Shown here: piece by piece, positions 7,123 through 26,157 of the stretch
How the letters are laid out: every line of letters begins with the position of its first letter
Position numbering within the stretch: position 1 is the first letter of the stretch
Assembly: GCF_004367745.1 (NCBI RefSeq)
Contig: NZ_CP037993.1
Location: 3,100,001 to 3,164,000 of the forward strand
DNA length: 64,000 nucleotides
Source of the DNA: Herbaspirillum huttiense
GTDB taxonomy: Bacteria > Pseudomonadota > Gammaproteobacteria > Burkholderiales > Burkholderiaceae_D
Direction: 5' to 3'
Made by a program: the position numbers and the translations under genes
Notes under the pieces: generated by a model
What the model was told of the DNA's origin: nothing
Seen by the model: the letters and a program-made list of their open reading frames with translations, nothing else
Databases searched by the model: none

Positions 7123-7262
7123 GGGTGCACTCCGGTCAAGTGAGACTTCCATCATACTGACCTGGATCGTCAGCAAATCGTCCGAACTCTGCGACAATGG
7201 AACCGCAATTCCCGGAATTGCCTGCAAAAAAACCACACAAACCATTGCATGGAGGAACTGTC

Positions 7263-8538: not shown

Positions 8539-9717
8539 TTAGCCCTTGCGGCCCCAATAGGATTTGTCGTTGAGCATGCCCTTGGGCGTGATGTCCTGAT
8601 CGAAGATGGAGGTCGGCAAGGCCACCGTGCAGGCGCAGTTGGGAATATCGACGATGCCGCCGATGCGCCCTTCCACCGGCGCGGCCGTCAGCAGCATGTA
8701 GGCCTGGCTGCCGGTGTAGCCGAAGTGGGTCAGGTAGTCGATGGCCTTCAGGCAGGCTTGACGATAGGCCACGGTGGCGTCGAGATAGTAGTTCACGCCG
8801 TTTTCCACGCTGATGCCTTCGAAGGTCAGCCACTGCTCGTAATGTGGCTTGACGATGCTGGGCATGAAGATGGGCGAGGTGATGTTGTACTTGGCCATGC
8901 CGCCCTTGATGAGGTCGAAGCCGACGTGGCTCACGCCATCCATCTCGATGGCGCCGCAGAAACCGATCTCGCCGTCGCCCTGCGAGAAGTGCAGGTCCCC
9001 CATCGAGAAACCCGCACCCTTCACGTACACCGGGAAGAAGATGCGGGTGCCCGCCGACAGGTCCTTGATGTCGGTATTGCCGCCGTGCTCGCGCGGCGGC
9101 ACGGTGCGGGCGGCGACCTTGGCCATCTCGTCGAATTTCGCACCGGTCAGGCCGCGCAAGACGGCAGTGCTGGGGTTCGGTGGTTGCGCCAGACCCTTGG
9201 CGGCCAGCGGCGCTTCCCGCCGATTCCACTCAGCCAGCAGATCGTGGGACGGCAGGCAACCCATCAGACCAGGGTGGGTCAGGCCTGCGATGCGCACGCC
9301 CGGAATATGGCGCGAGGTGGCATACAAGCCTTTCAGGTCCCAGATGGCCTTGTCGGCTTCGGGGAAATAGTCGGCCAGGAAGCCACCGCCGTTTTCCTTG
9401 GCAAAAACGCCCGAGAAACCGACCGGGGTCACCGGCTTGATGTCCAGCAGGTCGATCACCAGCAGGTCACCCGGCTCTGCGCCCTCGACATGGAAGGGAC
9501 CGGTCAGCGGATGGGCGCGGGTGAGATCGACGTTCTTGACGTCGGAGACATCGTCGGTGTCCTGAATCTGCGCGTCGAGGAAGTCCAGCGACTCGATCAG
9601 GATGGATTCGCCCGGCTTGACCGAGGCCAGGAACGGCAGGTCCGGGTGCCAGCGGTTGTGACCCAGTTCAGCCTGCTCTGCCAGCGGGACGCCGGGCTTG
9701 ATCTTGAAGTGTTGCAT
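8539..9717 (-). CDS. fmdA: formamidase (acetamidase/formamidase family)
   Basis: This 392-residue enzyme hydrolyses formamide to formate and ammonia. The sequence begins QHFKIKPGVPLAEQAELGHNRWHP and contains GCLPSHDLLAEWNRRE, GNTDIKDLSAGTRIFFPV, FSQGDGEIGFCGAIEM and the C-terminal KGMLNDKSYWGRKG. These are diagnostic of FmdA formamidases rather than nitrilase-type AmiF. The length is close to the family's 400-410. It follows amiE by 48 bp in the urt operon, so imported amides can be split by either enzyme. GGAG precedes the start. Confidence 0.95.
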   Translation of the reverse strand: MQHFKIKPGVPLAEQAELGHNRWHPDLPFLASVKPGESILIESLDFLDAQIQDTDDVSDVKNVDLTRAHPLTGPFHVEGAEPGDLLVIDLLDIKPVTPVGFSGVFAKENGGGFLADYFPEADKAIWDLKGLYATSRHIPGVRIAGLTHPGLMGCLPSHDLLAEWNRREAPLAAKGLAQPPNPSTAVLRGLTGAKFDEMAKVAARTVPPREHGGNTDIKDLSAGTRIFFPVYVKGAGFSMGDLHFSQGDGEIGFCGAIEMDGVSHVGFDLIKGGMAKYNITSPIFMPSIVKPHYEQWLTFEGISVENGVNYYLDATVAYRQACLKAIDYLTHFGYTGSQAYMLLTAAPVEGRIGGIVDIPNCACTVALPTSIFDQDITPKGMLNDKSYWGRKG

Positions 9718-9765: not shown

Positions 9766-10797
9766 TCAGGCTGCCGGCTCGGTGGGAATCCCCGGCATCG
9801 GGCATTCGGGCGTACCGGCACTGTTGCGCGTCAATGCCTCGACCTGGGCGCGCGCAGCCTGCGGGTCGTTGACCCAGGTGCGATAGAAGTCGAAAGGACA
9901 GTCGGCCACGCCCGCCGGCGATTCGCCCGAATTGATCTTGCCGGTGTAGCCGCGATGCAGGAGCTTGTAGAGGTGGTTCTGCGACTGCCAGTTGCGGCGT
10001 GCATCGCGGATGGCCGAGACCGACAGTTCGGCATACTGGATGCCCATCTCCTCGGTACCGCATTCGCCCAGCGTGCGGCCGTCGAAACCGACGATGGCCG
10101 AATGGCCGAAGTAGGAATAGACGCCATCGAACCCTGATGCATTGGCCACGGCCACATAGAGGTTGTTCATCCAGGCCATGGCCTTGGAGACCATGATCTG
10201 CTGTTCCTTGGCCGGATACATGTAGCCCTGGCAGCGCACCACCAGTTCCGCACCCTTCATGGCGCAGTCGCGCCAGATCTCGGGATAGTTGCCGTCATCA
10301 CAGATGATGAGGCTGATCTTCAAGCCCTTGGGACCGTCGCAGACGTAGGTGGTATCGCCCGGATACCAGCCCTCGATGGGCGTCCACGGCATGATCTTTC
10401 GATACTTCTGCACGATCTCGCCCTGGTCGTTGATGAGGATGAGCGTGTTGTAGGGCACCTTGCGCGGATGCTCCTCATGGCGCTCGCCGGTGAGCGAAAA
10501 GACGCCCCACACACCGGCGATGCGGCAGGCTTCGGAAAAGATGGCAGTCTCGTCGCCGGGGATGGTGGCGGCGGTCTCGAACATTTCTTCACGGTCATAC
10601 ATGATGCCGTGGGTGGAATACTCCGGGAACACCACCAGGTCCAGCCCCGGCAATCCCTGCTTCATGCCGACCAGCATGGCGGCGATCTTCCTGGCGTTCT
10701 CCAGCACCTCGCCGCGCGTGTGCAGGCGCGGCATCTTGTAGTTCACCACGGCCACGCCGACGGCGTCCCGGCTGGATGAAATGTCTCCGTGTCGCAT
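9766..10797 (-). CDS. amiE: aliphatic amidase
   Basis: This 343-residue nitrilase-superfamily amidase has its catalytic triad at exactly the numbering of Pseudomonas AmiE: Glu59 in FPEYST, Lys134 in KYRKIMPW and Cys166 in [10 protein letters not shown]. It hydrolyses short aliphatic amides such as acetamide and propionamide to the acid and ammonia. The first residues ([21 protein letters not shown]) and the length are typical. It lies between urtE and fmdA in one operon, which supports a role in nitrogen scavenging from amides imported by the Urt transporter. Confidence 0.95.
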
Positions 10798-10826: not shown

Positions 10827-11516
10827 TCAGACCGACAGATACTTGCTGATGGTGGGCGCATCGACGTTCTCGCGCGTGTCCTCGTAGACGAAGCGGCCCT
10901 TGTCGATGACCAGGAAACGGTCCGCAATCTCCAGCGTGAAGCTCAGCACCTGCTCCGAGACCACGATGGTGAGCGCACGGATCTTGCGGATTTCCTTGAG
11001 GCTTTTGGCGATGTCCTTGATGATGGAAGGCTGTATCCCTTCAGTCGGTTCATCCAGCAGCAGCACGCGCGGGTTGGTCGCCAGTGCGCGCGCAATGGCC
11101 AGTTGCTGCTGCTGCCCGCCGGACAGATTGCCGCCCTTGCGGGTGCGCATGTCATACAGCACCGGGAACAGCGAATACAGTTCATCGGGCACCTTGCCCT
11201 TGGCCGATGCGGGCAAGCCGGTCTGGATGTTTTCCAGCACCGTCATGTGCGAAAAGATCATGCGCCCCTGCGGCACGTAGGCCACGCCGCGCTCGACGCG
11301 CTGGTGGCTTTCCAGGCCACCGAGTTCCACGCCATCGATGCTGATGCTGCCGCCGCGCAGCGGCAGGATGCCCATCAGGGTCTTGAACAGTGTGGTCTTG
11401 CCCATGCCGTTGCGGCCCATGACGGCGACGATTTCTTCCTTGGCCACCGACAGATCGACATCGTGGATGACCTTGCTCTGGCCGTAGCCGGAGGCGAGTT
11501 GCGAGACTTTGAACAT
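10827..11516 (-). CDS. urtE: urea/amide ABC transporter ATP-binding protein UrtE
   Basis: A 229-residue ABC ATPase of the branched-chain amino acid (LivF) type. It has Walker [10 protein letters not shown], signature [15 protein letters not shown], Walker [15 protein letters not shown] and the typical SEQ switch in VVSEQVL. The ATG at 11516 is chosen because GGAG precedes it and the family N-terminus starts there; an upstream frame to 11561 overlaps urtD. It energises the UrtBC permease from the cytoplasm. Confidence 0.93.
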
Positions 11517-11541
11517 GGCAGGCTCCGAGGGTGAGGAAAGT

Positions 11542-12309
11542 TCAGTGACCGAGATAGACATCGATCACCTTGGGATCGGACTGCACCTTCTCCATGCTGC
11601 CCTCAGCCAGGATTTTTCCCTGGTGCAGCACGGTGACCTTGTGGGCGATGCTCTTGACGAAATCCATGTCGTGCTCGATCACTACCACCGAGCGGCCCTG
11701 GCTGATGCGGCCCAGCAGCTCGGCGGTCTTTTCGCGTTCGGACACGCTCATGCCGGCCACCGGTTCATCCAGCATCAAGAGCTCCGGCTCCTGCATCAGC
11801 AGCATGCCGATCTCCAGCCACTGCTTCTGGCCGTGCGAGAGCAGGTCGGCCTGCGTATGCAGCTGTTGGTCCAGGAAGATCTCTGCGGCCACCGCTTCCA
11901 CCCGCGCCACCACATCCGGCGAACGCTTGAAAGTCAGCGCGCCGAACACCTTGCGGCCACGCGGGAAGGACATCTCAAGGTTCTCGAACACGGAGAGGTT
12001 TTCGTAGATGGACGGGGTCTGGAACTTGCGTCCCACGCCTACCCGCACGATGGCGTGCTCGCTCATCTTCGTCAGTTCGTGATTGTTGAACTTGATGCTG
12101 CCGGAGGTAGCGCGGGTCTTGCCGCAGATCAAGTCCAGCACCGTGGTCTTGCCCGCACCGTTGGGGCCGATCACCACGCGCACCTCATTGCGCTGCACGT
12201 AGAGATTGAGCTTGTCGACTGCCTTGAATCCATCGAAAGACACGGTCAGGTCTTCGATGGCCAGGACCGGATGGGCGTCCGATTCGAAACCGATGACGTT
12301 CTCGCTCAT
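11542..12309 (-). CDS. urtD: urea/amide ABC transporter ATP-binding protein UrtD
   Basis: A 255-residue LivG-type ABC ATPase. Walker A is GPNGAGKTT, the signature region is the degenerate LLSHGQKQWLEIGMLL that is characteristic of UrtD, and Walker B is LLMLDEPVAGMS, followed by the H-loop EHDMDF. Its start overlaps the urtC stop by 4 bp, indicating translational coupling. It pairs with UrtE. Confidence 0.95.
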   Translation of the reverse strand: MSENVIGFESDAHPVLAIEDLTVSFDGFKAVDKLNLYVQRNEVRVVIGPNGAGKTTVLDLICGKTRATSGSIKFNNHELTKMSEHAIVRVGVGRKFQTPSIYENLSVFENLEMSFPRGRKVFGALTFKRSPDVVARVEAVAAEIFLDQQLHTQADLLSHGQKQWLEIGMLLMQEPELLMLDEPVAGMSVSEREKTAELLGRISQGRSVVVIEHDMDFVKSIAHKVTVLHQGKILAEGSMEKVQSDPKVIDVYLGH

Positions 12310-13514
12310 TTGCTGGCCTCCAGGGTCGCGCCCGGCTCGATGCCATCGCGCTTGGGTTCAGGGGTGGATGCTCGGGAAACCGGCTTGGCGGCTTCTGCAG
12401 CAACGGGTGCTACCGGCTTGGATTGACCGCGCAGCTTGTCCATCAGGCGCTTGCCCTGCGTCTGCCAGAGCCCGGCCAAGCCATTGGGGAAATACATCAC
12501 CACCGCGATGAAGAGACCGCCCATCAGGAACAGCCACAATTCGGGGAAGGTTTCGGAGAAGTAGGTTTTGCCAAAATTCACCAGCAGCGTTCCGTACACC
12601 GCGCCCAGCAGCGACATGCGGCCACCCACTGCAGCAAAGATCACCATTTCGATGGAGGGCACGATACCGACGAAGGACGGCGACATGAAGCCCACCTGCA
12701 GCGTGAACATGGCCCCGCCGATAGCCGAGAACATGGCCGCCGCACAGAAGACGAAGACCTTGAAGCTGGCCACGTCATAGCCGGAGAAACGCACCCGTTC
12801 TTCCTTGTCGCGCATGGCCACCAGCAGGCGGCCCAGCTTGGAACCGAGCACGTAGCGGCCGAACAGGATGCAGCCGAACAGCAGTCCCGCATTGACGAAA
12901 TACAGCACCAGCTTGGCATGGTCGGTGCGGATATCCCAGCCCATCAAAGTCTTGAGGTCGGTGATGCCATTGACGCCGCCGGTCAGCCCCTGCTGGCCGA
13001 TGATGAGGATGGACAGGATGGCCGCAATGGCTTGCGTGACGATGGAGAAATACACATCCCCCACGCGGCGCTTGAACATCGCCAGCCCGATCAGCATGGC
13101 CAGCGCGGTCGGCACCACCAGCACGGCAAGAATCGTGAAGGCAAAACTATGGAAGGGCTCCCACATGGCCGGCAAGGCGGTGATCTGGTTCCAGTCCATG
13201 AAGTCGGGGATGCCCGGCGTGGACTGGATTTTGGTGCTGATGGGGTCAGAGGCTTCGAGCTTGAGGAACATGGCCATGCAATAGCCGCCCAGGCCGAAGA
13301 ACACGCCCTGCCCCAGGCTGAGGATGCCGCCGTAGCCCCAGCACAGCACCAGGCCCACGGCCACGAAGGCGTAGGACAGGTATTTGCCCACCAGGTTGAG
13401 ACGGAACATGTCCATCGTCAGCGGGAACACCACCAGCAGCAGTACCGCCATCACCAGCAGGCCAAGCGCACCGGAGCGCCCGCCCAGCAGTTTTTCATAG
13501 GCTGCATTCATCAT
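12306..13514 (-). CDS. urtC: urea/amide ABC transporter permease UrtC
   Basis: This 402-residue polytopic inner-membrane permease is LivM-like. It has the GYGGILSLGQGVFFGLGGY motif near residue 60, and the cytoplasmic coupling region RYVLGSKLGRLLVAMRDKEERVRFSGYD near 215-245 is conserved in UrtC. About 45 residues at the C-terminus are a Pro/Ala/Lys tail beyond the usual end of the family. It forms the heterodimeric channel with UrtB. Confidence 0.93.
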   Translation of the reverse strand: MMNAAYEKLLGGRSGALGLLVMAVLLLVVFPLTMDMFRLNLVGKYLSYAFVAVGLVLCWGYGGILSLGQGVFFGLGGYCMAMFLKLEASDPISTKIQSTPGIPDFMDWNQITALPAMWEPFHSFAFTILAVLVVPTALAMLIGLAMFKRRVGDVYFSIVTQAIAAILSILIIGQQGLTGGVNGITDLKTLMGWDIRTDHAKLVLYFVNAGLLFGCILFGRYVLGSKLGRLLVAMRDKEERVRFSGYDVASFKVFVFCAAAMFSAIGGAMFTLQVGFMSPSFVGIVPSIEMVIFAAVGGRMSLLGAVYGTLLVNFGKTYFSETFPELWLFLMGGLFIAVVMYFPNGLAGLWQTQGKRLMDKLRGQSKPVAPVAAEAAKPVSRASTPEPKRDGIEPGATLEASK

Positions 13515-13560: not shown

Positions 13561-14478
13561 TCATTTGCGCACCTTCGCCGAGAACAGCCCTTGCGGACGC
13601 AACATCAGGATCAGGATCACCGCCGACAAGGTCAGCACCTTGGCCATGGAACCGGTCAGGAAGAATTCCGCCGTGGACTGCGTCTGTGCAATCGAGAAGG
13701 CCGAGGCGATGGTGCCGATGAGGCTTTGCGCGCCACCGAAGACCACCACCAGGAAGGTATCGACGATGTAGAGCGATCCGCTGGTCGGGCCGGTGGAGCC
13801 GATGGTGGTGAAAGCAGCACCGGCCACGCCGGCGACCCCGCAGCCGAGTGCAAAGGTGGTGCGGTCGACCTTGCGGGTATTGATGCCCACGGCCCCGCTC
13901 ATGACACGGTTCTGCATGGTTGCCCGCACCTGCAAGCCCCAGCGTGAACGGAACAGCAATACGAAGATGGCACCGGTGAGCAGCACCGTGAGGCCCATCA
14001 TGAAGAGACCGTTCAAGGGGATGTCGATGGCATCGGTCGGCTTGAAGGAACCCATGAGCCAGTCCGGCAAGGTGGCGCTGACTTCCTTGGCGCCGAAGAT
14101 GGAACGGAAGGTCTGCTGCATCGCCAGCGACAGGCCCCAGGTCGCCAGCAAAGTATCGAGCGGACGCTTGTAGAGGCGGCTGATGAGCAGCAGCTCGGTG
14201 AGATAACCCACGCCATAGGCCACGGCGAAGGACAGCACGATGGCCACGAAGAAATAGAACGGCTGCAAGGCCGGCGCATAGGTGGTGGTCAGGTGCGACA
14301 GCAGGTAGGTGATGTAGGCGCCGATGGTGAGGAATTCACCGTGGGCCATGTTGATCACGCCCATCTGCCCGAAGATGATGGCCAGGCCCAGCGCCATCAG
14401 CAGCAGCACGCAGAAAACCGAGAGGCCATTGAAGCCCTGCATGGCGAAGATGGCGCCGAATTCGGATAGAGAAACCAT
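13561..14478 (-). CDS. urtB: urea/amide ABC transporter permease UrtB
   Basis: A 305-residue LivH-type permease with about eight hydrophobic segments. The motifs ALGLAIIFGQMGVINMAHGEFLTIGAY and FRSRWGLQVRATMQNRVMSGAVGI (coupling helix) are typical of UrtB. The ATG at 14478 is preferred because GGGAG lies before it; the longer frame to 14583 reads through the urtA-urtB spacer. It lies 118 bp after urtA, which allows differential expression of the binding protein. Confidence 0.93.
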   Translation of the reverse strand: MVSLSEFGAIFAMQGFNGLSVFCVLLLMALGLAIIFGQMGVINMAHGEFLTIGAYITYLLSHLTTTYAPALQPFYFFVAIVLSFAVAYGVGYLTELLLISRLYKRPLDTLLATWGLSLAMQQTFRSIFGAKEVSATLPDWLMGSFKPTDAIDIPLNGLFMMGLTVLLTGAIFVLLFRSRWGLQVRATMQNRVMSGAVGINTRKVDRTTFALGCGVAGVAGAAFTTIGSTGPTSGSLYIVDTFLVVVFGGAQSLIGTIASAFSIAQTQSTAEFFLTGSMAKVLTLSAVILILMLRPQGLFSAKVRK

Positions 14479-14596
14479 GATGACTCCCGACGGGGCAGAG
14501 TTGCAGATTGGAGAAATGGGCGGCAGCGCCCGCATGTCACTACAGGCGCCACCGCTTTGCTGCACGAAGGGCCGGTGCGGCACCGGCCGGAACGCC

Positions 14597-15853
14597 TTAC
14601 TGGTAGCCCTTGGGGAAGGGATTCGGCTCGATCAGTTCGGACTCGTAGACCACCTTGAACTGGCCGTCCTTCTGCGCCTCGCCGATGCGGGTCTTGCTCC
14701 ACAGGTGATGGTTTTCATGAACCTTGACGTAGCCTTCGGGCGCGGTCTTGAGTTCGATGCCGGGCGAAGCGGCCACCACCTTGTCGACATCGAAGCTGCC
14801 GGCTTTTTCCACGGCAGCCTTCCACAGCCAGGGGCCGAGATAGGCCGCCTGGGTCACGTCGCCGATGACCGAATTGGCACCGAACTTGGCCTTGAATTCG
14901 GCCACGAATTTCTTGTTGTTGGCGTTGTCGAGACTCTGGAAATACTTCATCGAGGCGAAGAAGCCTTCCACGTTCTCGCCGCCGATGCCCAGCATTTCAT
15001 CCTCGGTCACCGAGATCGTCAGCAGGTTCTGGGTCTTGGCGGTGACGCCGGCGGCCTTCAACTGCTTGTAGAAGGCGACGTTGGAGCCACCGACCACGTC
15101 GGCGAAGATCACGTCGGGCTTTTTCAACTTGATCTTGTTGATGAGCGAACCGAACTGCGTGTTGCCCAGCGGGTAGTATTCCTCGCCCACCACCGAACCC
15201 TTGAGCACGCTCTCGATGTGCTTGCGGGCGATCTTGTTGGAAGTCCGCGGCCAGATGTAGTCCGAGCCGACCAGGAAGAAGGTCTTGGCCTTCTTTTCCT
15301 TGGCCACCCAGTTCAGGCCCGCCAGCACCTGTTGCGTCGCCTCCTGCCCGGTATAGAACACGTTCTTGGATTGCTCCAGGCCTTCATAGAAGGTGGGGTA
15401 ATACAGCAGGCCGTTGTCCTTCTCGAACACCGGCAGCACCGCCTTGCGCGAGGCCGAGGTCCAGCAGCCGAAGACGGCAGCCACGCGGTCGTTTTCCAGC
15501 AGCTTCTTGGCCTTTTCGGCGAAGGTAGGCCAGTCGCTGGCACCGTCTTCCTGGATGATCTTGATCTTGCGGCCGAGGATGCCGCCCATGGCATTGATCT
15601 GGTCGATGGCCAGGCGCTCGGCCTGGATCGAACCGGTCTCGCTGATGGCCATGGTGCCGGTGGCCGAGTGCAGCTGGCCGACCGTGACTTCGGTATCGGT
15701 GATGGCCAGCTTGGTGGTGTTGACCTTGGCGGTCGGATACTGCTGGGCCGAGGCCATGCCCGGCAGGGCCGCTGCTGCCGCCCCGGCGGCCAGGCCCATG
15801 AGGATCTTGCGGCGTGGGAGCGAGGGAGGATTGGAAGACGAGGAATGCGACAT
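14597..15853 (-). CDS. urtA: urea/short-chain amide binding protein UrtA
   Basis: This 418-residue periplasmic substrate-binding protein captures urea or short amides for UrtBCDE. The N-terminus carries a signal with PRRKILMGLAAGAAAAALPGMASA, which has a two-arginine (PRR) motif compatible with Tat-type export. The mature part contains VGQLHSATGTMAISETG and FGCWTSASRKAVLP, both typical of UrtA/FmdD. The ATG at 15853 has a full AAAGGAG at ideal spacing. It is the first gene of the operon, and its promoter region is shared with the divergent permease-kinase gene. Confidence 0.95.
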   Translation of the reverse strand: MSHSSSSNPPSLPRRKILMGLAAGAAAAALPGMASAQQYPTAKVNTTKLAITDTEVTVGQLHSATGTMAISETGSIQAERLAIDQINAMGGILGRKIKIIQEDGASDWPTFAEKAKKLLENDRVAAVFGCWTSASRKAVLPVFEKDNGLLYYPTFYEGLEQSKNVFYTGQEATQQVLAGLNWVAKEKKAKTFFLVGSDYIWPRTSNKIARKHIESVLKGSVVGEEYYPLGNTQFGSLINKIKLKKPDVIFADVVGGSNVAFYKQLKAAGVTAKTQNLLTISVTEDEMLGIGGENVEGFFASMKYFQSLDNANNKKFVAEFKAKFGANSVIGDVTQAAYLGPWLWKAAVEKAGSFDVDKVVAASPGIELKTAPEGYVKVHENHHLWSKTRIGEAQKDGQFKVVYESELIEPNPFPKGYQ

Positions 15854-16010
15854 GCGGTACTCCTTTCGGGCGTTGTTGTTGGACTCGGTCTGGGCCATCG
15901 TGGCGTCATGCAAGCGGTGAAACGAAGACCGGACAAGTCACTGCCCCGGCAGTGGCGCGGCTCGGGAAACCCCTTCCATCACACGGTTCCGGCGCTTCGT
16001 TCTGAGCCGC

Positions 16011-16039: not shown

Positions 16040-16055
16040 TACGTTGTTTGACGTA
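16040..16055. promoter_or_regulatory. palindromic box 1, TACGTTGTTTGACGTA
   Basis: This near-palindrome shares 14 of 16 bases with box 2. Its centre lies about 43 bp upstream of the predicted urtA start, the usual place for an activator that contacts RNA polymerase. The neighbouring LuxR-type response regulator is the obvious candidate ligand. Confidence 0.6.
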
Positions 16056-16212: not shown

Positions 16213-16228
16213 TACGTCATTTGACGTA
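16213..16228. promoter_or_regulatory. palindromic box 2, TACGTCATTTGACGTA
   Basis: A perfect inverted repeat with 7-base arms (TACGTCA and TGACGTA) around TT. It lies 173 bp from box 1 and upstream of the kinase-side promoter candidate, so it may serve autoregulation or looping. Confidence 0.6.
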
Positions 16229-16363: not shown

Positions 16364-19300
16364 GTGACTCATCCCGCCACTCAACGCATCGTCAAGGTCC
16401 GGCGCGACTACAACACCTGGGTCGCCAACGAGACGCTGGAAGACTACGCGCTGCGCTACACGCCGCTGTCCTTTCGCCGCTGGTCCGAATTTCGCCTGGC
16501 CAACACGGCGCTGGGGGCCACCTCCTTCCTGGCGCTGGAAGCCATCAGCGGGGCCATCACCCTGAGCTATGGCTTCACCAATGCCTTCTGGGCCATCATC
16601 TGCGTGATGGTGCTGTTCTTCGCGACCGGCCTGCCCATCAGCTATTACGCGGCGCGCTACGGGGTGGACATGGACCTGCTCACGCGCGGCGCCGGCTTCG
16701 GCTACATCGGCTCGACCATCACCTCGCTGATCTACGCCAGCTTCACCTTCATCTTCTTCGCGCTGGAAGCGGCGATCATGGCGCAGGCCATCGAGATCTA
16801 TTTCGGCCTGCCGCTGGTGTATGGCTATGTGCTCTGTTCGCTCATCATCATCCCCATGGTGGCCTACGGCATCACCCTGATCAACCGGCTGCAGATGTGG
16901 ACCCAGCCGCTGTGGCTGGTGCTGCTGGTGCTGCCCTATGCCTGCGTGCTGTACAAGGAACCGGAGGCACTGTCGAACCTGATGAGCTTCGCGGGCCGTG
17001 CCGAAGAAGGCAGCTCCTTCAACCTCACGCTCTTCGGCGCGGCCGCCACGGTGGCCTTCTCGTTGATTGCGCAAGTAGGCGAACAGGTCGACTTCCTGCG
17101 CTTCCTGCCGCAGAAGACTGCCGCCAATCGTGGCCGCTGGTGGAGCGCCCTGCTGCTGGCCGGACCCGGCTGGATCCTGCTGGGCGGGGCCAAGATGCTG
17201 GGCGGCACGCTGCTGGCATTCCTCGCCATCCAGCATGAAGTGCCCATGGTGCGGGCCGTGGAACCAACCCAGATGTACCTGATCGGCTACCAGTACGTGT
17301 TCGGCAATCCGGCCTTTGCGCTGGGGGCGGTGGTGCTGTTCGTGGTGGTGTCGCAGATCAAGATCAATGTCACCAATGCCTATGCCGGCTCGCTGGCCTG
17401 GTCCAACTTCTTTGCGCGCCTCACGCACAGCCATCCGGGGCGCGTGGTGTGGCTGGTCTTCAACGTGCTGATCGCGGTGCTGCTCATGGAGCTGGGGGTG
17501 TTCAATGCGCTGGAACACGTGCTGGCGCTCTACAGCCTGGTGGCCATCTCCTGGATCGGGGCCGTGGTGGCCGATCTGGTCATCAACAAGCCGCTGCGCC
17601 TGAGCCCGGCGCACATTGAATTCAAGCGCGCTCACCTGTATGACGTGAATCCCGTTGGTGTCGGTTCAATGGTGATTGCCACCCTGCTCTCCACACTGGC
17701 CATGTCGGGCGTGATGGGCAAGACCATTGCCGCGATGGCCCCCTTCATCGCATTGGGGACGGCGCTGGTGACGGCGCCGCTGATCGCGCTGGCCACCGGC
17801 AGCCGCTACTACATCGCGCGGCGCGATACGCTGTCCGAGCAGAACTATCGGCCCGTCACGCCCGGACAGGCGCACTCGGTACTGGATTGCGTGATCTGTG
17901 GCAATGCGTTCGAGACGCCGGACATGGCGCATTGTCCAGCCTACCAGGGGGCCATCTGTTCGCTGTGCTGTTCACTCGATGCACGCTGCAAGGACCGCTG
18001 CAAAACGCCCCGCGCACGCCTGCCCAACCAGATTCTTCATACGCTGCGCCAGCTGATCCCTGCGCGCTTCGCACTCAAGCTCAATACGCGTATCGGGCAT
18101 TACCTGAGTGTCTTCGGGCTGTTGGCCGGCGGGCTGGCCATCGTGTTGTGGATGCTGTATTTCCAGCAGATGGCCGATCTTTCCGGGCTGAGCTTGTCCG
18201 CACCGGATTCGTTGCGGGGCGTCTTCATCAAGCTGTTCTGCCTGCTGCTGGTAGTGGTTGGCGTCGGCGCCTGGTGGCTGGTGCTGACCAACGAGAGCCG
18301 TGCCGTGGCCCAGGAGGAATCGGAACGCCAGACCAACCTGCTGCTGCAGGAAATCGAAGCCCACAAACAGACCGATGCCGAACTGCAGCGCGCCAAGGAA
18401 GCCGCCGAATCGGCCAACCTGGCCAAGAGCCGCTTCGTGGCCGGCATGAGCCACGAATTGCGCACGCCCCTGAACAGCATCCTCGGCTATGCCCAGATCC
18501 TGCACGTGGACGCCACCATCCCGCCGGCCCGCAAGGAAGCCATCGCCATCATCCGCCGCAGTGGAGAACATTTGCTGAGCCTCATCGATGGCCTGCTCGA
18601 CATCGCCAAGATCGAAGCCGGCAAGATGCGGCTGGCCTCGGACGAGCTGGCGCTGGAAGCCTTCCTGGAACAGATCGTCGGCATGTTCGCGCCACAGGCC
18701 GAACAGAAGGGACTGCACTTCCGCTTCGAGAAATCGGGACGCCTGCCGCAGATCGTGCACGCGGACCAGAAGCGGCTGCGCCAGATCCTCATCAACCTGC
18801 TGGGCAATGCGGTGAAATTCACCGATCACGGCGGCGTCACGCTCAAGCTGCGCTACGCCCGCGAGATCGCGTATTTCGATGTGATCGACAGCGGCATCGG
18901 CATTGCCGACGAGGACCTGGAACGCATCTTCCTGCCCTTCGAGCGCAGCAGCGCCGCCAATCTGCGCGAAGACATCGGCACCGGCCTGGGCTTGGCCATC
19001 AGCCGCATGCTGGTGCACATCATGGGCGGCGAACTGAGCGTGCAGAGCAGGGTCGGCCACGGCAGCAGTTTCCATCTCAAAATCTACCTGCCTGAAATAC
19101 ACGTCCCGCGTCCGCGCATCAAGCTGGAAGACCAGATGTCGGGCTACGCCGGTCCTTCTCGCCACATCCTGGTGGTGGACGACCAGGCCTCGCAACGTCG
19201 CCTGCTCAGGGACATGCTCATGCCGCTGGGATTCGTGGTGAGCGAAGCCGACAGCGGACTGGCCTGCATGGAGCGTCTGGGACGCGAAATCCCGGACCTG

Positions 19301-19810
19301 ATCCTGCTGGACATCGCCATGCCGCAGATGGATGGCTGGACGGTGGCCCGCGCCATCCGCGCACGCGGACTTGCGCAATTGCCCATCCTGCTGGTCTCGG
19401 CCAATGCCTTCGAGAACCTCCATGAGCGCAACGAGCCGCCGCTGGTCAATGATTTCGTGGTCAAGCCGGTCTCGTATCACGAATTGCTGGGCAAGATCCG
19501 CCAGCATCTGCAACTGGATTGGGTGGCGAGCATCCTTCCTGCTGTGCCGGCAGAAGTGCCACCGCCATCTGCGGCGCCACAGGCCCTGATGCTGGTGCCA
19601 CCGCAAGACAAGCTGGCCGCCCTGCTCGAACTGGGCAGCATCGGCTACGCCAAGGAAATCCTGCGCCAGCTCGACGCCATGGAGCGCCAGCAGCCGGCCT
19701 ACCTGCCCTTCACCACCGAGCTGAGGCAGCTGGTCAAGCAATTCCGATTGAATGAATACGTCACCCGCATCAAGGAGCTGATCCGACATGATCTCAACGA
19801 CGTTCGATAG
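16364..19810 (+). CDS. NCS1-type permease fused to hybrid sensor histidine kinase
   Basis: This is a 1148-residue membrane sensor. Residues about 25-490 form a 12-segment NCS1-like (cytosine/purine/hydantoin permease) transporter. Residues about 509-546 are a cysteine-rich module: CVIC, C in AHCPAY, ICSLCC, then RCKDRC. Two more membrane segments lie near 575-640, then a coiled coil, a HisKA domain (H697 in SHELRTPLN), a HATPase (N box NLLGNAVKF, G boxes DSGIGI and GTGLGLA) and a receiver domain with Asp983. A helical tail of about 60 residues closes the protein. The start is GTG at 16364 without a strong ribosome site. Lying divergent to the urt/ami/fmd operon, it probably senses urea, an amide or a related nitrogen compound; the ligand is inference. 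Confidence 0.88.
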   Translation: MTHPATQRIVKVRRDYNTWVANETLEDYALRYTPLSFRRWSEFRLANTALGATSFLALEAISGAITLSYGFTNAFWAIICVMVLFFATGLPISYYAARYGVDMDLLTRGAGFGYIGSTITSLIYASFTFIFFALEAAIMAQAIEIYFGLPLVYGYVLCSLIIIPMVAYGITLINRLQMWTQPLWLVLLVLPYACVLYKEPEALSNLMSFAGRAEEGSSFNLTLFGAAATVAFSLIAQVGEQVDFLRFLPQKTAANRGRWWSALLLAGPGWILLGGAKMLGGTLLAFLAIQHEVPMVRAVEPTQMYLIGYQYVFGNPAFALGAVVLFVVVSQIKINVTNAYAGSLAWSNFFARLTHSHPGRVVWLVFNVLIAVLLMELGVFNALEHVLALYSLVAISWIGAVVADLVINKPLRLSPAHIEFKRAHLYDVNPVGVGSMVIATLLSTLAMSGVMGKTIAAMAPFIALGTALVTAPLIALATGSRYYIARRDTLSEQNYRPVTPGQAHSVLDCVICGNAFETPDMAHCPAYQGAICSLCCSLDARCKDRCKTPRARLPNQILHTLRQLIPARFALKLNTRIGHYLSVFGLLAGGLAIVLWMLYFQQMADLSGLSLSAPDSLRGVFIKLFCLLLVVVGVGAWWLVLTNESRAVAQEESERQTNLLLQEIEAHKQTDAELQRAKEAAESANLAKSRFVAGMSHELRTPLNSILGYAQILHVDATIPPARKEAIAIIRRSGEHLLSLIDGLLDIAKIEAGKMRLASDELALEAFLEQIVGMFAPQAEQKGLHFRFEKSGRLPQIVHADQKRLRQILINLLGNAVKFTDHGGVTLKLRYAREIAYFDVIDSGIGIADEDLERIFLPFERSSAANLREDIGTGLGLAISRMLVHIMGGELSVQSRVGHGSSFHLKIYLPEIHVPRPRIKLEDQMSGYAGPSRHILVVDDQASQRRLLRDMLMPLGFVVSEADSGLACMERLGREIPDLILLDIAMPQMDGWTVARAIRARGLAQLPILLVSANAFENLHERNEPPLVNDFVVKPVSYHELLGKIRQHLQLDWVASILPAVPAEVPPPSAAPQALMLVPPQDKLAALLELGSIGYAKEILRQLDAMERQQPAYLPFTTELRQLVKQFRLNEYVTRIKELIRHDLNDVR

Positions 19811-20771
19811 ACACGTGGTACTGATCGTCGATGACATGCCCGACAACCTGGCCATGTTGTCCGACGCGCTCGATGAGAGCGGCCACATCGTACTGGTCGC
19901 CACCGACGGCCTGGCGGCGCTGGAGCGGCTGGATCACATCACGCCCGACCTGATCCTGCTGGATGCGATGATGCCCGGCATCGATGGCTTCGAGACCTGT
20001 CGCCGCATCAAGCAGGTCAAGCGCGTGGCGCATGTGCCGGTGGTGTTCATGACGGGCTTGTCGGAGACCGAACACGTGGTGCGCGGCTTCGAGGTCGGCG
20101 GCATCGACTACGTGACCAAGCCGATCCGTCCGCAGGAGGTGGTGGCGCGCATTGGTGCGCATATCCGTACTGCGCGCATGATGACGCAGACGCGCGGCAT
20201 GCTGGAACATGCGGCACATGCGGTGATCGTGCTGGGCGGCAATGGCTTGCCGATGTGGCAGACCAGCAAGGCCTCACAGTGGCTGGAAAAATACTATGGT
20301 CCGGCGGCACCGGCCAGTCACAAGCTGCCCGGGCCCTTGCAGGTCTGGCTCAACGAGCAGCTGGTACGGCAGCGCCAGGGCGAGAGCCTGGATCACGTAC
20401 CGCCGTTGATCGTGCGCCAGCAACAGGATGAACTGCACATCACCCTCTCCGGTCCGGGCCAGGGTCATGGCGTGAGCCTGGTGCTGGAGGAGAAGATCGC
20501 CGGCTCGGCGCATCGCGGCGAAGAGCTCATGGTCCTGCCGGCCACTCTGGAAGGTGCACGCCTGACGCCGCGCGAAAGCGACGTGCTGCTCTGGCTGGGC
20601 AAGGGCAAGACCAACCGCGACATCGCCGAGATCCTCGGCATGAGCCCGCGTACGGTCAACAAGCACCTGGAACATATTTTCGTGAAGCTGGGGGTGGAGA
20701 CGAGGTCGGCGGCGGCGGTGCTGGCCAGCAGCCTGACCGGCACCAGCAGCGCCACACAGTTGCTGCAATGA
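19788..20771 (+). CDS. response regulator, receiver plus LuxR-type DNA-binding domain
   Basis: This 327-residue regulator overlaps the kinase gene by 23 bp, so the two are translationally coupled and almost certainly cognate. The receiver domain (1-125) has the acidic pair DD at 15-16, phospho-acceptor Asp59 in LILLDAMMPGIDG and the conserved lysine in VTKPI. A middle region of about 110 residues has no domain I recognise, though its VIVLGGNGLPMWQTSKA segment could be PAS-like. The C-terminal helix-turn-helix (about 258-305: LTPRESDVLLWLGKGKTNRDIAEIL) is NarL/LuxR type. Likely targets are the two palindromic boxes upstream of urtA. Confidence 0.9.
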   Translation: MISTTFDRHVVLIVDDMPDNLAMLSDALDESGHIVLVATDGLAALERLDHITPDLILLDAMMPGIDGFETCRRIKQVKRVAHVPVVFMTGLSETEHVVRGFEVGGIDYVTKPIRPQEVVARIGAHIRTARMMTQTRGMLEHAAHAVIVLGGNGLPMWQTSKASQWLEKYYGPAAPASHKLPGPLQVWLNEQLVRQRQGESLDHVPPLIVRQQQDELHITLSGPGQGHGVSLVLEEKIAGSAHRGEELMVLPATLEGARLTPRESDVLLWLGKGKTNRDIAEILGMSPRTVNKHLEHIFVKLGVETRSAAAVLASSLTGTSSATQLLQ

Positions 20772-20895: not shown

Positions 20896-22377
20896 TCAAT
20901 GACCTGTCAGCACATCGGCCCCATCCTTCTTGTCATGCAGGGCAAACCGCTCCACCAGCGTAGCACTGGCTTCGTTCAGACCATGGATATGGACCCGTGC
21001 ACCCGCGTGCCGCAGTTTGAGGATGATCTTGTCCAGCGCGCCGATGGCGGTGATATCCCAGAAGTGCGCCTGAGTCAGTTCAATGTGGATGTCGCGGGCT
21101 ACCTGTTGATAGTCGAAGCAATGGACCAGCTGGTCGGCCGAGGCAAAGAAGACCTGACCGGTCACATGGTAGCGTTGCAGCGCTCCCGCACGCTCCGACG
21201 TGACGGTGACATTGAGCAGTCGGCTGACCTTCTGCGCAAAGAACACGCCCGACAGCAGCACGCCCGTCACCACACCCTTGGCCAGATCATGGGTCGCCAC
21301 AGTGACGATGACGGTCGCCAGCATGACCAGGCTGGAGCTGGCCGGATGCGTACGCAGGTTGCGCAGGGAGCGCCAGTTGAAAGTCCCGATGGAGACCATG
21401 ATCATCACCGCCACCAATGCGGCCATGGGAATCTGCTGCACCCACTGTCCGAGGAAGACCACGAAGATCAATAAAAATGCCCCGGCGGCAAAGGTGGACA
21501 GACGAGTGCGTCCACCCGAACGGACATTGATCACGGACTGGCCGATCATCGCGCAACCTGCCATGCCTCCCAAGAAGCCGGTCACCACGTTGGCCATTCC
21601 CTGGCCCAGACATTCCCGGTTCTTGTCGCTGCGGGTATCGGTCATGTCGTCGACGATGGTCGCGGTCATCAGTGATTCAAGCAGGCCGACCAGCGTGAGA
21701 GTGAGCGAGTACGGAAGTATGATCTGCAAGGTCTGTAGATTGAAGGGAACGTCAGGAAGGAGGAAGCGGGGCAAACTGTCCGGCAATGCGCCCAACTCTC
21801 CGACCGTACGGATCGGTAGATGCCATGTCATTGACACGGCCGTCAGCACGATGATGGCCACCAGCGGCGATGGGACCGCGCGGGACAGGTAAGGCAGACC
21901 GTAGATGATGACCAGGCCAGCCAGGGTCATGGCATAGACCGGCCACCCCACGTGGGTCAGTTCGGGCAATTGTGCAAGGAAGATCAGAATGGCCAGCGCA
22001 TTGACGAATCCGGTGATCACCGATTGCGACACAAAACGCATCAGGCGGTCCAGCTTGATCAAGCCGGCAAGGATTTGCAGTACGCCGGTCAGCACCGTGG
22101 CGGCCAGCAGATAATCCAGCCCGTGCGTGCGCACCAGGCTGGCCATCACCAGCGCCATGGCCCCGGTGGCCGCCGAGATCATTGCGGCACGGCCACCGAA
22201 GAAGGCGATCAGGGTCGCTATCGAAAACGAGGCATAAAGCCCGACCCTGGGATCGACACCGGCGATGAGGGAAAAAGCGATCGCTTCCGGAATCAGAGCC
22301 AGTGCGACGACAGGTCCGGCGAGCAAATCGCCGCGGACATTGGAAAACCACTCTTGGCGTATTTTTTGAAGAGACAT
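20896..22377 (-). CDS. SulP-family anion transporter with STAS domain
   Basis: This 493-residue inner-membrane protein belongs to the SulP/SLC26 family. The first 380 residues carry about 11-12 hydrophobic segments, including the family motifs [17 protein letters not shown] and [19 protein letters not shown] short STAS domain ([21 protein letters not shown]) closes the protein. Substrates in the family are sulfate, bicarbonate or dicarboxylates, and the sequence does not decide among them. The ATG at 22377 has GGGAGGT ahead of it; the longer frame to 22428 lacks this. Confidence 0.88.
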
Positions 22378-22994
22378 GGAGATACCTCCCGACCAATCGG
22401 CCAGGTCAAAGGGACGCAGCCCATCCAACGGGATGCGCTACGTTCCAGACAATATGGAAACAGGCCCGCGCCCGTGCCATCGCAGCAGGCGCGCACAAGT
22501 AAGGCTTGGTGATGGCCCGGATGGAGGACCATCAGCCAGCGATGCGAGGAGAGAGACTTAAGGCGGCGTGACGGAACAGAAATAGCCGCGCGGCAGCCCG
22601 GCGCCCGGATAGGCGAGCGCTTCGAGGCACTGCTGCAGGAAGCTCATGCGCCCGACACAGCACGCGGCTGCAACATCGGCATGGAGGGAGGAAGAATACG
22701 GCATAGGGGGCATTGTCGCTCCTGACACGCGACCAGGTCAAGGCTTGGCGAGATCTGGCATGCTGAAGCGTCAAACGCAAGAGGTGGCAAGAGCCCGCAT
22801 GACGCGCCACCAAACCTGGCAGGCAAGCGCCCCTTGGCCACATGCCCAGGCCGGCACCGCCGGGGTACGCTCGGCGGCGCTTGGCCAGTGGCCTGGGTGT
22901 CCACGAGCACAATAAAAGCGGACAAGCCGGGTCAGTTTGGCCTATCCTTGCACAGGGCACTCACGCCCATCATCACCGAAGCAAAGGAGTCAAC
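22378..22994. other. 617-bp region without a recognised gene
   Basis: It separates the divergent SulP and small-protein genes. Short frames on both strands have the low-complexity, Arg-rich look of antisense or chance ORFs. A 29-codon minus-strand frame (22558-22647, beginning MSFLQQCLEALAYPG) is the most peptide-like but lacks a ribosome site. I see no clear promoter or structured RNA. Confidence 0.4.
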
Positions 22995-24687: not shown

Positions 24688-26157
24688 TTACTTCAGCGCA
24701 AACCGCGTCGGCACCCGCTGCAGGGCGTCATACAAGGGCCGGCAGGATTCGGCCAGACGCTCCAGGCTGGCCTCGCGCAGCGCGTCCAGATCCACCGGCT
24801 CCGTTCCCGCCAGTCCGGCCCAGGCCAGCAGCGCACCGAAGGCTTGCGGCGTATCGAACATGCCATGCAGGTAGCTGCCCAGGATCTGACCATCTTCCGA
24901 TTGCGCACCCTCGCCGCGCCCGTCGATCACGAACGCAGGACGCCCCAGCGCCGGGCCGGAGGACACGCCCATGTGGATCTCGTAGCCACTGACCGTTGCA
25001 GCCGTCTCAGCGAAGGCGCATTGGCCGACCACCTGAAGCAGTTTCTTCTCACGCGTCAATTCGGTACGCATCGGCAGCAAGCCGAGGCCGACACTGCTGC
25101 CGGGCGCACCTTCCACACCATGCGGATCGTCCACGCTCTCCCCCAGCATCTGGAAGCCGCCACAGATGCCGATGAGCTTGCCGCCATAGCGCAGGTGCCG
25201 CGCGATGGCCGTGTCCCAGCCGTGTTCCCGCAGCCAGCGCAGGTCACCGCGCGTGTTCTTGCTGCCGGGCAGGATGATGAGATCGGCGGGCGGCACCGGC
25301 TGACCGGGCCCGATGAAACGCAGGTCCACACCGGGATGGGCGCGCAGCGCGTCAAAGTCGGTGTGGTTGCTGATGCGCGGAAAGACCGGCACCACAATGC
25401 GGAAATCGCCCTTGACTTCCTGCGTGGCCGCCACGGCATCCTCGGCATCGAGATGCAGTCCGTGCAGGTAAGGCAGCACCGCCAGCACGGGCTTGCCGGT
25501 GCGGGCTTCGAGCCAATCCAGGCCGCCCTGCAAGAGACTGATATCGCCCCGAAAACGATTGATGACGAAGCCGATCACGCGCTCGCGCTCACTCTCGGAA
25601 AGACAATCGAGGGTGCCGGTCAGATGGGCGAAGACGCCGCCCCGGTCGATGTCGGCCACGATGATGACCGGGCAATCGACCGCTTCCGCAAAGCCCATGT
25701 TCGCGATGTCGCGCGCGCGCAGGTTGATCTCGGCCGGACTGCCCGCCCCTTCCACGATCACGCAGGCATATTGCGTGCGCAGACGCTCGTAGGATTGCAG
25801 CACGGCCTGCATGGCTTCGGTCTTGTAGCGGTGATAGTCACGGGCGTTCATATCCGCGCGCACCTTGCCATGCACGATGACCTGAGCGCCGGTATCGCTG
25901 GAAGGTTTCAGCAGCACCGGGTTCATATCGGTGTGGGGCGCGATGCCGGCGGCCTGGGCCTGCAGGGCCTGGGCCCGTCCGATCTCGCCGCCATCGCTGG
26001 TGACGGCGCTGTTAAGGGCCATGTTCTGCGGCTTGAAGGGGGCGACGCCGATGCCATCCTTCTTCAGCAGGCGACACAGCGCAGCGGCCAAGGTACTCTT
26101 GCCGGCATCCGACGTGGTGCCCTGGATCATCAAGGTATGGAAGGGAAAATCAGCCAC
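24688..26157 (-). CDS. cobQ: cobyric acid synthase
   Basis: This 489-residue enzyme amidates side chains b, d, e and g of adenosylcobyrinic acid a,c-diamide using glutamine and ATP. The N-terminal ATPase-like domain starts [24 protein letters not shown] with the deviant P-loop, and [10 protein letters not shown] is diagnostic. The C-terminal class I glutamine amidotransferase has the nucleophile in [11 protein letters not shown] and the catalytic His in SYLHGMFD. It overlaps cobD by 8 bp and is the last gene of the cobalamin operon. Confidence 0.96.

Follow-up and report, generated by a model that had tools for sequence, protein, structure and literature searches.

A hybrid histidine kinase with an NCS1-fold permease head and an eight-cysteine module as a probable short-chain amide sensor in Herbaspirillum huttiense

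In a 64,000-nucleotide stretch of the Herbaspirillum huttiense chromosome (the window; positions 3100001-3164000 of a single-contig 5.69-Mb genome), one open reading frame (ORF) encodes an 1148-residue hybrid histidine kinase that begins with a predicted NCS1-fold permease domain followed by a module of eight cysteines. We propose, with a probability of roughly 70%, that this kinase senses a short-chain amide and switches on the divergent urtABCDE-amiE-fmdA operon via an adjoining REC-LuxR response regulator. The neighbouring genes, the loss of ring-stacking aromatic residues from the permease pocket, and an invariant lysine at the Na2 position together make a short-chain amide, for instance formamide or acetamide, the likely ligand, with urea likely taking its place in some relatives.

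Domain order of the sensor kinase and its partner regulator

The sensor gene, its domains and the regulator gene lie in the window as follows.

16364..19810, + strand: hybrid histidine kinase with permease sensor, 1148 residues (ORF)
16427..17803, + strand: NCS1-fold permease domain, about residues 22-480
17876..18007, + strand: eight-cysteine module, residues 505-548 (8 Cys invariant in 87/87 rows)
18089..18355, + strand: two further helices, the second entering a coiled coil, residues 576-664 (predicted, AlphaFold model)
18422..18622, + strand: HisKA domain with H697 (codon 18452-18454; Pfam)
18764..19090, + strand: HATPase_c domain, residues 801-909 (Pfam)
19166..19498, + strand: receiver domain with D983 (Pfam)
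19788..20771, + strand: REC-LuxR response regulator with D59 (Pfam; overlaps the kinase gene)

Pfam detected HisKA, HATPase and receiver domains in the kinase, and the phospho-acceptors H697 and D983 were located, identifying the protein as a hybrid histidine kinase. The partner regulator, whose ORF shares 23 bases with the kinase ORF, contains a receiver domain, in which D59 was located, and a LuxR-type GerE helix-turn-helix. These assignments confirm the order of permease, Cys module, HisKA, HATPase, receiver and overlapping REC-LuxR regulator, as well as the cysteine spacing, that the original prediction had read from the DNA letters. Pfam returned no match to kinase residues 1-686, and a PDB sequence search returned nothing for residues 1-645; the 25 models listed of 153 matching NCBIfam models all fell on the kinase part. 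A PDB search with the family profile yielded weak RING-type matches alone (E above 4). On average, the permease is conserved more than the kinase part.

The permease head has an NCS1 fold with an altered pocket

Because Pfam (including PF02133) and NCBIfam alone fail on the permease part, we turned to profile-profile comparison and to fold comparison of an AlphaFold model, both of which revealed NCS1 likeness across the whole helical core; the best fold matches of the head were NCS1 proteins. The SLC5 profile PF00474 matched elsewhere in the genome and not in the 1148-residue ORF. These results support the earlier proposal of an NCS1-type rather than SLC5-type sensor, with the qualification that the window protein did not reach the curated PF02133 cut-off and that its similarity over the core came from profile and fold comparison. 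A stand-alone relative (locus L204, 8432-10117, - strand; 45% identical) does pass the PF02133 cut-off, and five other stand-alone relatives tested fail it.

To map the pocket, Mhp1 and CodB were aligned onto NCS1, and NCS1 onto the kinase/permease family. CodB holds cytosine between W108 and F204 and binds Na+ via T278 and T279 (PMC9379551; statements from papers cited here by PMC number refer to the available excerpts of those papers). The W108 position is F131 in 126/132 family rows, and the F204 position (residue 235) is mostly Ile or Val; ordinary NCS1 rows have Trp at the former in 19/22 and an aromatic residue at the latter in 18/22. Mhp1 Q121 corresponds to E135, and Mhp1 S312 and CodB T278 to K333, each in 132/132 family rows. 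The next residue is I334 in 131/132 rows, so that the Na2 Ser/Thr residues of transmembrane helix 8 are absent. Mhp1 N318 corresponds to N338 in 132/132 rows, the least sure of these pairings owing to a one-residue alignment gap just before N338. Eight polar pocket positions are kept in all 132 rows, and the invariant residues include E135, Q237, E240, Q241, N335 and N338. The lost aromatic pair is a stronger mark than the lost Na2 Ser/Thr. Its loss would fit a small ligand that has no ring, and the lysine found at the Na2 position would fit a cycle that runs without Na+. With the ring-stacking pair replaced by F131 and mostly Ile or Val at 235, and with E135 invariant, the hydantoin or nucleobase signal entertained by the original prediction appears unlikely.

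The kinase lies opposite a predicted amide operon in the window and near amide or urea genes across its family

Divergent from the kinase gene, the window carries the following genes.

14597..15913, - strand: UrtA-type substrate-binding protein of a predicted amide ATP-binding cassette (ABC) transporter (TIGR03407, 536.6 bits, cut-off 492.75)
13561..14583, - strand: UrtB-type permease (TIGR03409)
12306..13514, - strand: UrtC-type permease (TIGR03408)
11542..12309, - strand: UrtD-type ATPase (TIGR03411)
10827..11561, - strand: UrtE-type ATPase (TIGR03410)
9766..10797, - strand: AmiE, aliphatic amidase (NF009802, 708.1 bits, cut-off 427)
8539..9717, - strand: FmdA, formamidase (NF045496, 558.8 bits, cut-off 500)

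A second UrtA, at 5571243, scores better than the window UrtA (586.6 vs 537.1 bits), and the urease alpha gene, at 5578867, is about 7.6 kb away from it. A further pair of UrtA-like binding proteins at 3904656-3911415, with TIGR03407 scores of 254 and 344 bits, both below the cut-off, may mark another locus for uptake of an amide or urea-like compound.

We surveyed amide and urea genes, called by BLAST cut-offs, in 20-kb stretches around kinases from an evenly sampled genome set. The search gave 60 matches; once the window's own match had been set aside, together with two fragments (G586 and G637) and a distant permease (G544:C40, which is L202), 56 kinase loci remained, and 54 of these had amide or urea genes within 20 kb. 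Thirty-seven loci were amide-linked (FmdA in 37, amide-type UrtA in 35, AmiE in 20) and 17 were urea-linked (UreC in 12, urea-type UrtA in 9); the two with neither were both on contig-end stretches of 10,372 and 4,779 bases. Among 80 loci selected because they resemble the window, 48 were amide-linked, 12 urea-linked, three both and 17 neither. Four genomes (G596, G728, G575 and G509) contain one amide-linked and one urea-linked kinase. A gene matching the regulator lies downstream of 110/135 family kinases and of 50/56 even-sample kinases by a looser count (48/56 by a stricter one); the 50/56 count is perhaps too low, as a Pseudomonas gene at locus L016, read by eye, is of REC-LuxR type. Among 15 loci compared for conserved neighbours of cyanobacterial kinases, no gene recurred in three or more, with the exception of a receiver-type gene in three non-cyanobacterial loci.

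These findings bear out the suggestion that the signal is a nitrogen compound and that the regulator adjoins the urt-ami-fmd operon, and they narrow the proposed list of nucleobase, hydantoin, urea or amide. Given the separate urt cluster beside urease and the amide or urea genes at 54/56 loci, short-chain amides are a better fit in this genome than urea. A similar argument has been made for an FmdA/AmiE-linked Urt-like cluster of Bradyrhizobium, which was concluded to carry probably an amide and not urea (PMC3098086). A Pseudomonas strain with chromosomal amiE-fmdA-fmdB-urtABCDE is reported to grow on formamide and acetamide as sole nitrogen source (PMC13209695). As described there, the chromosomal locus of that strain is without AmiC and AmiR, and a second, plasmid-borne amidase operon has both. 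In our survey, five Pseudomonas loci (L015-L017, L019 and L020) carry the kinase.

A palindrome marks the region between the kinase and urtA

Two copies of a palindrome, each a predicted operator with no strand assigned, lie between the divergent transcription units.

16040..16055: palindrome TACGTTGTTTGACGTA, predicted operator, urtA side
16213..16228: palindrome TACGTCATTTGACGTA, predicted operator, kinase side

The pattern TACGT-N6-ACGTA has these two copies, and no others, in the 5.69-Mb genome, and the exact palindrome appeared in none of 100 shuffles of the window. Upstream of family genes, the exact copy with spacing 6 was found at 51/140, against 0 in an equal in-gene stretch, and all other spacings from 0 to 12 gave a single match. 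A relaxed form, TACGY-N6-RCGTA, which was chosen after these sites had been viewed, occurred upstream of 71/84 amide-linked, 2/29 urea-linked, 2/3 doubly linked and 1/19 unlinked loci; its sites numbered 98 in upstream stretches (1.25 per kb) and 29 elsewhere (0.011 per kb). In an unbiased scan of 5-base palindromes, TACGT with spacing 6 ranked first in the amide class (44/84), although another palindrome, in conserved coding sequence, reached up to 39/84 inside the gene. These distributions suggest that the REC-LuxR regulator may bind the palindrome. A candidate palindrome for the urea-linked class was rejected, the best reaching 6/29 loci and falling under the in-gene background of 15/29.

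The eight-cysteine module, a putative zinc finger, is shared with stand-alone permeases

A search for the module in 299 genomes gave 47 matches, 42 of them strong, and all 42 strong matches lay in family frames of 894-1247 residues. The module was also found in stand-alone permeases without a kinase. Its model contains short strands and one short helix, and not the four-helix bundle of a STAC domain; its fold matches were weak and mostly structural zinc fingers. In the L204 relative, one of two interleaved four-Cys sets is lost and the other kept. The module is thus predicted to be a cytoplasmic two-site (Cys4-Cys4) zinc finger beside the permease. Of the two functions originally offered for it, metal binding is plausible in light of the zinc-finger-like matches and the L204 cysteine loss, and redox sensing gained no support of its own. 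At L224 (9964-13179, + strand), L225 (6153-10046, - strand) and cyanobacterial loci, the permease and Cys module are constant and the kinase end varies in length and make-up; frames with a varying kinase end span 953-1298 residues.

Stand-alone relatives and the origin of the fusion

At least 588 relatives were found in named genomes, and at least 7999 proteins were scored. In even samples, the family occurs in 54/398 Pseudomonadota genomes, 18/369 genomes of the class of H. huttiense, and 10/194 genomes of the phylum of the cyanobacterium Elainella, Elainella included. Herbaspirillum aquaticum has a 99%-identical copy over residues 1-629. Stand-alone permeases with the Cys module, of about 550 residues, occur, among others, in Cyanobacteria, Acidiferrobacter, Acidihalobacter, Leptospirillum, Vulcanimicrobiaceae and Limnocylindria (names as given by the sources).

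Several stand-alone members adjoin the same catabolic genes as the kinases. Three genomes from a single genus (L203, L207 and L208) have a regulator-kinase pair divergent from a stand-alone permease followed by FmdA and AmiE, the permease with its Cys module occupying the usual place of urtABCDE. At L204, the stand-alone permease comes after UreC, UreF and a UreG-type gene, all on one strand; at L206 the stand-alone permease adjoins a PF01425 amidase, and at L025 it adjoins FmdA. A stand-alone permease of Acidihalobacter prosperus (P0211; source-given name) is a candidate carrier in a species that has been reported with urease but without a urea transporter (PMC9062700).

In a tree of 133 rows of the 168 collected, from which near-identical and short rows had been dropped, kinases and stand-alone proteins are split with a Shimodaira-Hasegawa-like approximate likelihood ratio test (SH-aLRT) value of 99 and two changes, one being P0241 among the cyanobacterial kinases. 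The amide/urea label needs six changes, stand-alone rows included. The sensor probably originated when a kinase became fused to an amide/urea permease whose family still has stand-alone members. In several kinase branches, amide genes and urease/urea-Urt genes appear to have replaced each other as neighbours. A distant permease without the Cys module (L202:9791-11446, + strand) passes the PF02133 cut-off and lies next to a UrtA-like gene with a Peripla_BP_5 domain and to an ORF weakly similar to AmiE; it is a possible bridge between ordinary NCS1 proteins and the kinase-linked family.

We give even odds to a broader model in which a so far unnamed NCS1 branch, marked by its own eight-cysteine zinc module and the Na2-position lysine, is an amide/urea permease family. 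One ancient kinase fusion would have made it the main amide/urea receptor, with a dedicated operator, in many Pseudomonadota and some Cyanobacteria, and its stand-alone members would be the missing urea/amide importers where urease or formamidase lacks a known carrier.

Proposed mechanism and alternative explanations

In the mechanism that we infer, a short-chain amide would enter the central pocket with its invariant residues E135, Q237, E240, Q241, N335 and N338, and the permease would change state without Na+, with K333 at the CodB/Mhp1 Na2-ligand position. The Cys module and the two extra helices would pass this change to H697; we propose that the module may relay permease motion as the STAC domain, which sits under the transporter, may in CbrA (PMC13022988). 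Phosphoryl transfer to the LuxR-type partner would then lead to its binding of TACGTC-N4-GACGTA-like sites between both transcription units, and the bound regulator would activate the divergent urtABCDE-amiE-fmdA operon for amide uptake.

Several observations weigh against this model. NCBIfam names the window Urt proteins urea transporters, above its cut-offs, and 17 of the 80 similarity-chosen loci, 10 of them cyanobacterial, have no amide or urea genes nearby. Ordinary NCS1 rows have Ser/Thr at the T278 position in 7/22 and Thr at the T279 position in 9/22, so that the loss of these residues is a weak criterion. No difference in pocket positions between urea- and amide-linked kinases passed a phylogenetic test with three to five independent pairs, and the assignment of amide versus urea therefore rests on neighbours and not on pocket residues; candidate specificity columns such as 448, 197, 205, 300 and 390, which reached no significance over those pairs, were dropped. 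The reversed control pattern of the operator has three copies in the genome, so that about three exact palindromes are expected by chance and the place of the palindrome, not its rarity, is the evidence. The relaxed palindrome was a post hoc choice and is nearly absent from the urea-linked class, and many loci are close relatives, so that the operator counts are not independent. Operator base 5 co-varies with regulator residue 291 (30/33 vs 3/19), a pattern that involves three changes on the tree and was not relied on. Finally, the isolated Cys-module model is weak, with a predicted local distance difference test (pLDDT) value of 65.5.

The most credible alternative is a variant compatible with the amide-sensing model, in which the permease actively transports its substrate and the kinase responds to flux rather than to occupancy. 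Stand-alone relatives with the same pocket residues sit in the place of transporters, which speaks for this variant, but the adjoining genes already encode an ABC transporter for that class of substrate, and we regard flux sensing as possible but rather less likely than not. We consider it unlikely that the kinase senses urea here too, with the neighbouring Urt proteins forming a true urea transporter: the NCBIfam urea models and the 17/56 urea-linked family loci would agree with this, but the locus contains AmiE and FmdA, not urease, and the better-scoring UrtA stands beside urease elsewhere in the genome.

Less probable still is that the Cys module is the real sensor, of redox state, metal or an iron-sulphur cluster, and the permease a membrane anchor. 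The eight invariant cysteines would suit such a role, but the permease is conserved above the kinase on average and keeps invariant pocket residues, and the module's presence in kinase-free permeases and its weak matches, mostly to structural zinc fingers, also speak against it. Sensing of a nucleobase or hydantoin, as in classical NCS1 transporters, would agree with the fold, but it is very improbable given the loss of the ring-stacking pair, the lysine at the Na2 position, and amide or urea genes at 54/56 loci in a survey that looked for those genes alone and not for nucleobase genes.

Comparison with known transporter-coupled sensors

The SLC5/STAC kinases CbrA, CrbS and RpuS likewise have a kinase fused to a LeuT-type fold, with a small cytoplasmic module in between (PMC13022988, PMC9100948), but they combine an SLC5 transporter with a four-helix STAC domain, whereas here an NCS1-like transporter is followed by the eight-Cys unit and two extra helices. 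The Kuenenia Amt-histidine kinase also uses a nitrogen-source transporter domain as its sensor (PMC5764959), although from another transporter family; here, residues 1-686 have no Pfam match. Mhp1 and CodB share fold and profile with the permease head, which differs from them in its replaced stacking aromatics, Na2-position lysine and added Cys module. Control of an aliphatic amidase operon, predicted here, is also the role of AmiC-AmiR, which is a binding protein with an antiterminator rather than a membrane kinase with a LuxR-type regulator (PMC13209695). The urt-ure genes of Herbaspirillum seropedicae similarly encode an Urt-type ABC transporter for a small nitrogen compound but adjoin urease and are thought to be Ntr-controlled via a sigma-54 promoter (PMC3093359); the urtA-kinase region here gave no strict sigma-54 match and one loose match on the + strand.

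Fusion of a transporter to a kinase, as in CbrA, has been described as rare (PMC13022988), and the studied fusions that we met use SLC5 or Amt domains. No description of the present architecture was found among the listed results of a literature search that covered few subscription journals, and Joint Genome Institute (JGI) protein names already pair a histidine kinase with a purine-cytosine permease-like protein. A urtABCDE operon with LuxR-family two-component genes has been noted, a figure legend naming a hybrid kinase, and the available excerpt mentions no transporter domain in that kinase (PMC13296017). The available part of a paper on metformin and NCS1 (PMC13390362) offered no urea or amide lead.

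The transporter-kinase family described here is real and widespread. Its members are presumed transceptors, and the case that they respond to amides, or to urea in several branches, is good. The family offers a natural experiment on the conversion of transporters into receptors, and it supplies a candidate regulator of the use of formamide/acetamide and urea. The Cys module is unnamed, and the family's stand-alone twins, which adjoin the same catabolic genes, are candidate carriers for organisms reported with urease and without a urea transporter.

Other genes in the window

Downstream of the amide operon, 4618-7245 (- strand) encodes an 875-residue DUF3141 protein (PF11339, 761 bits) with weak polyhydroxyalkanoate (PHA)-synthase similarity. 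A SulP-type permease with a STAS domain (20896-22428, - strand) is convergent with the regulator gene. Cobalamin biosynthesis genes follow at 24688-46022 (- strand), encoding a CbiA/GATase_3 protein (24688-26157), CbiJ, CbiD, a CbiC/CbiX fusion, a Mg-chelatase-like ATPase and CobN. The first of these, a cobyric-acid-synthase-like gene, lies about 4 kb from the regulator gene, and in two genomes (L221 and L222) a gene that resembles it at 39% stands directly divergent from the kinase.

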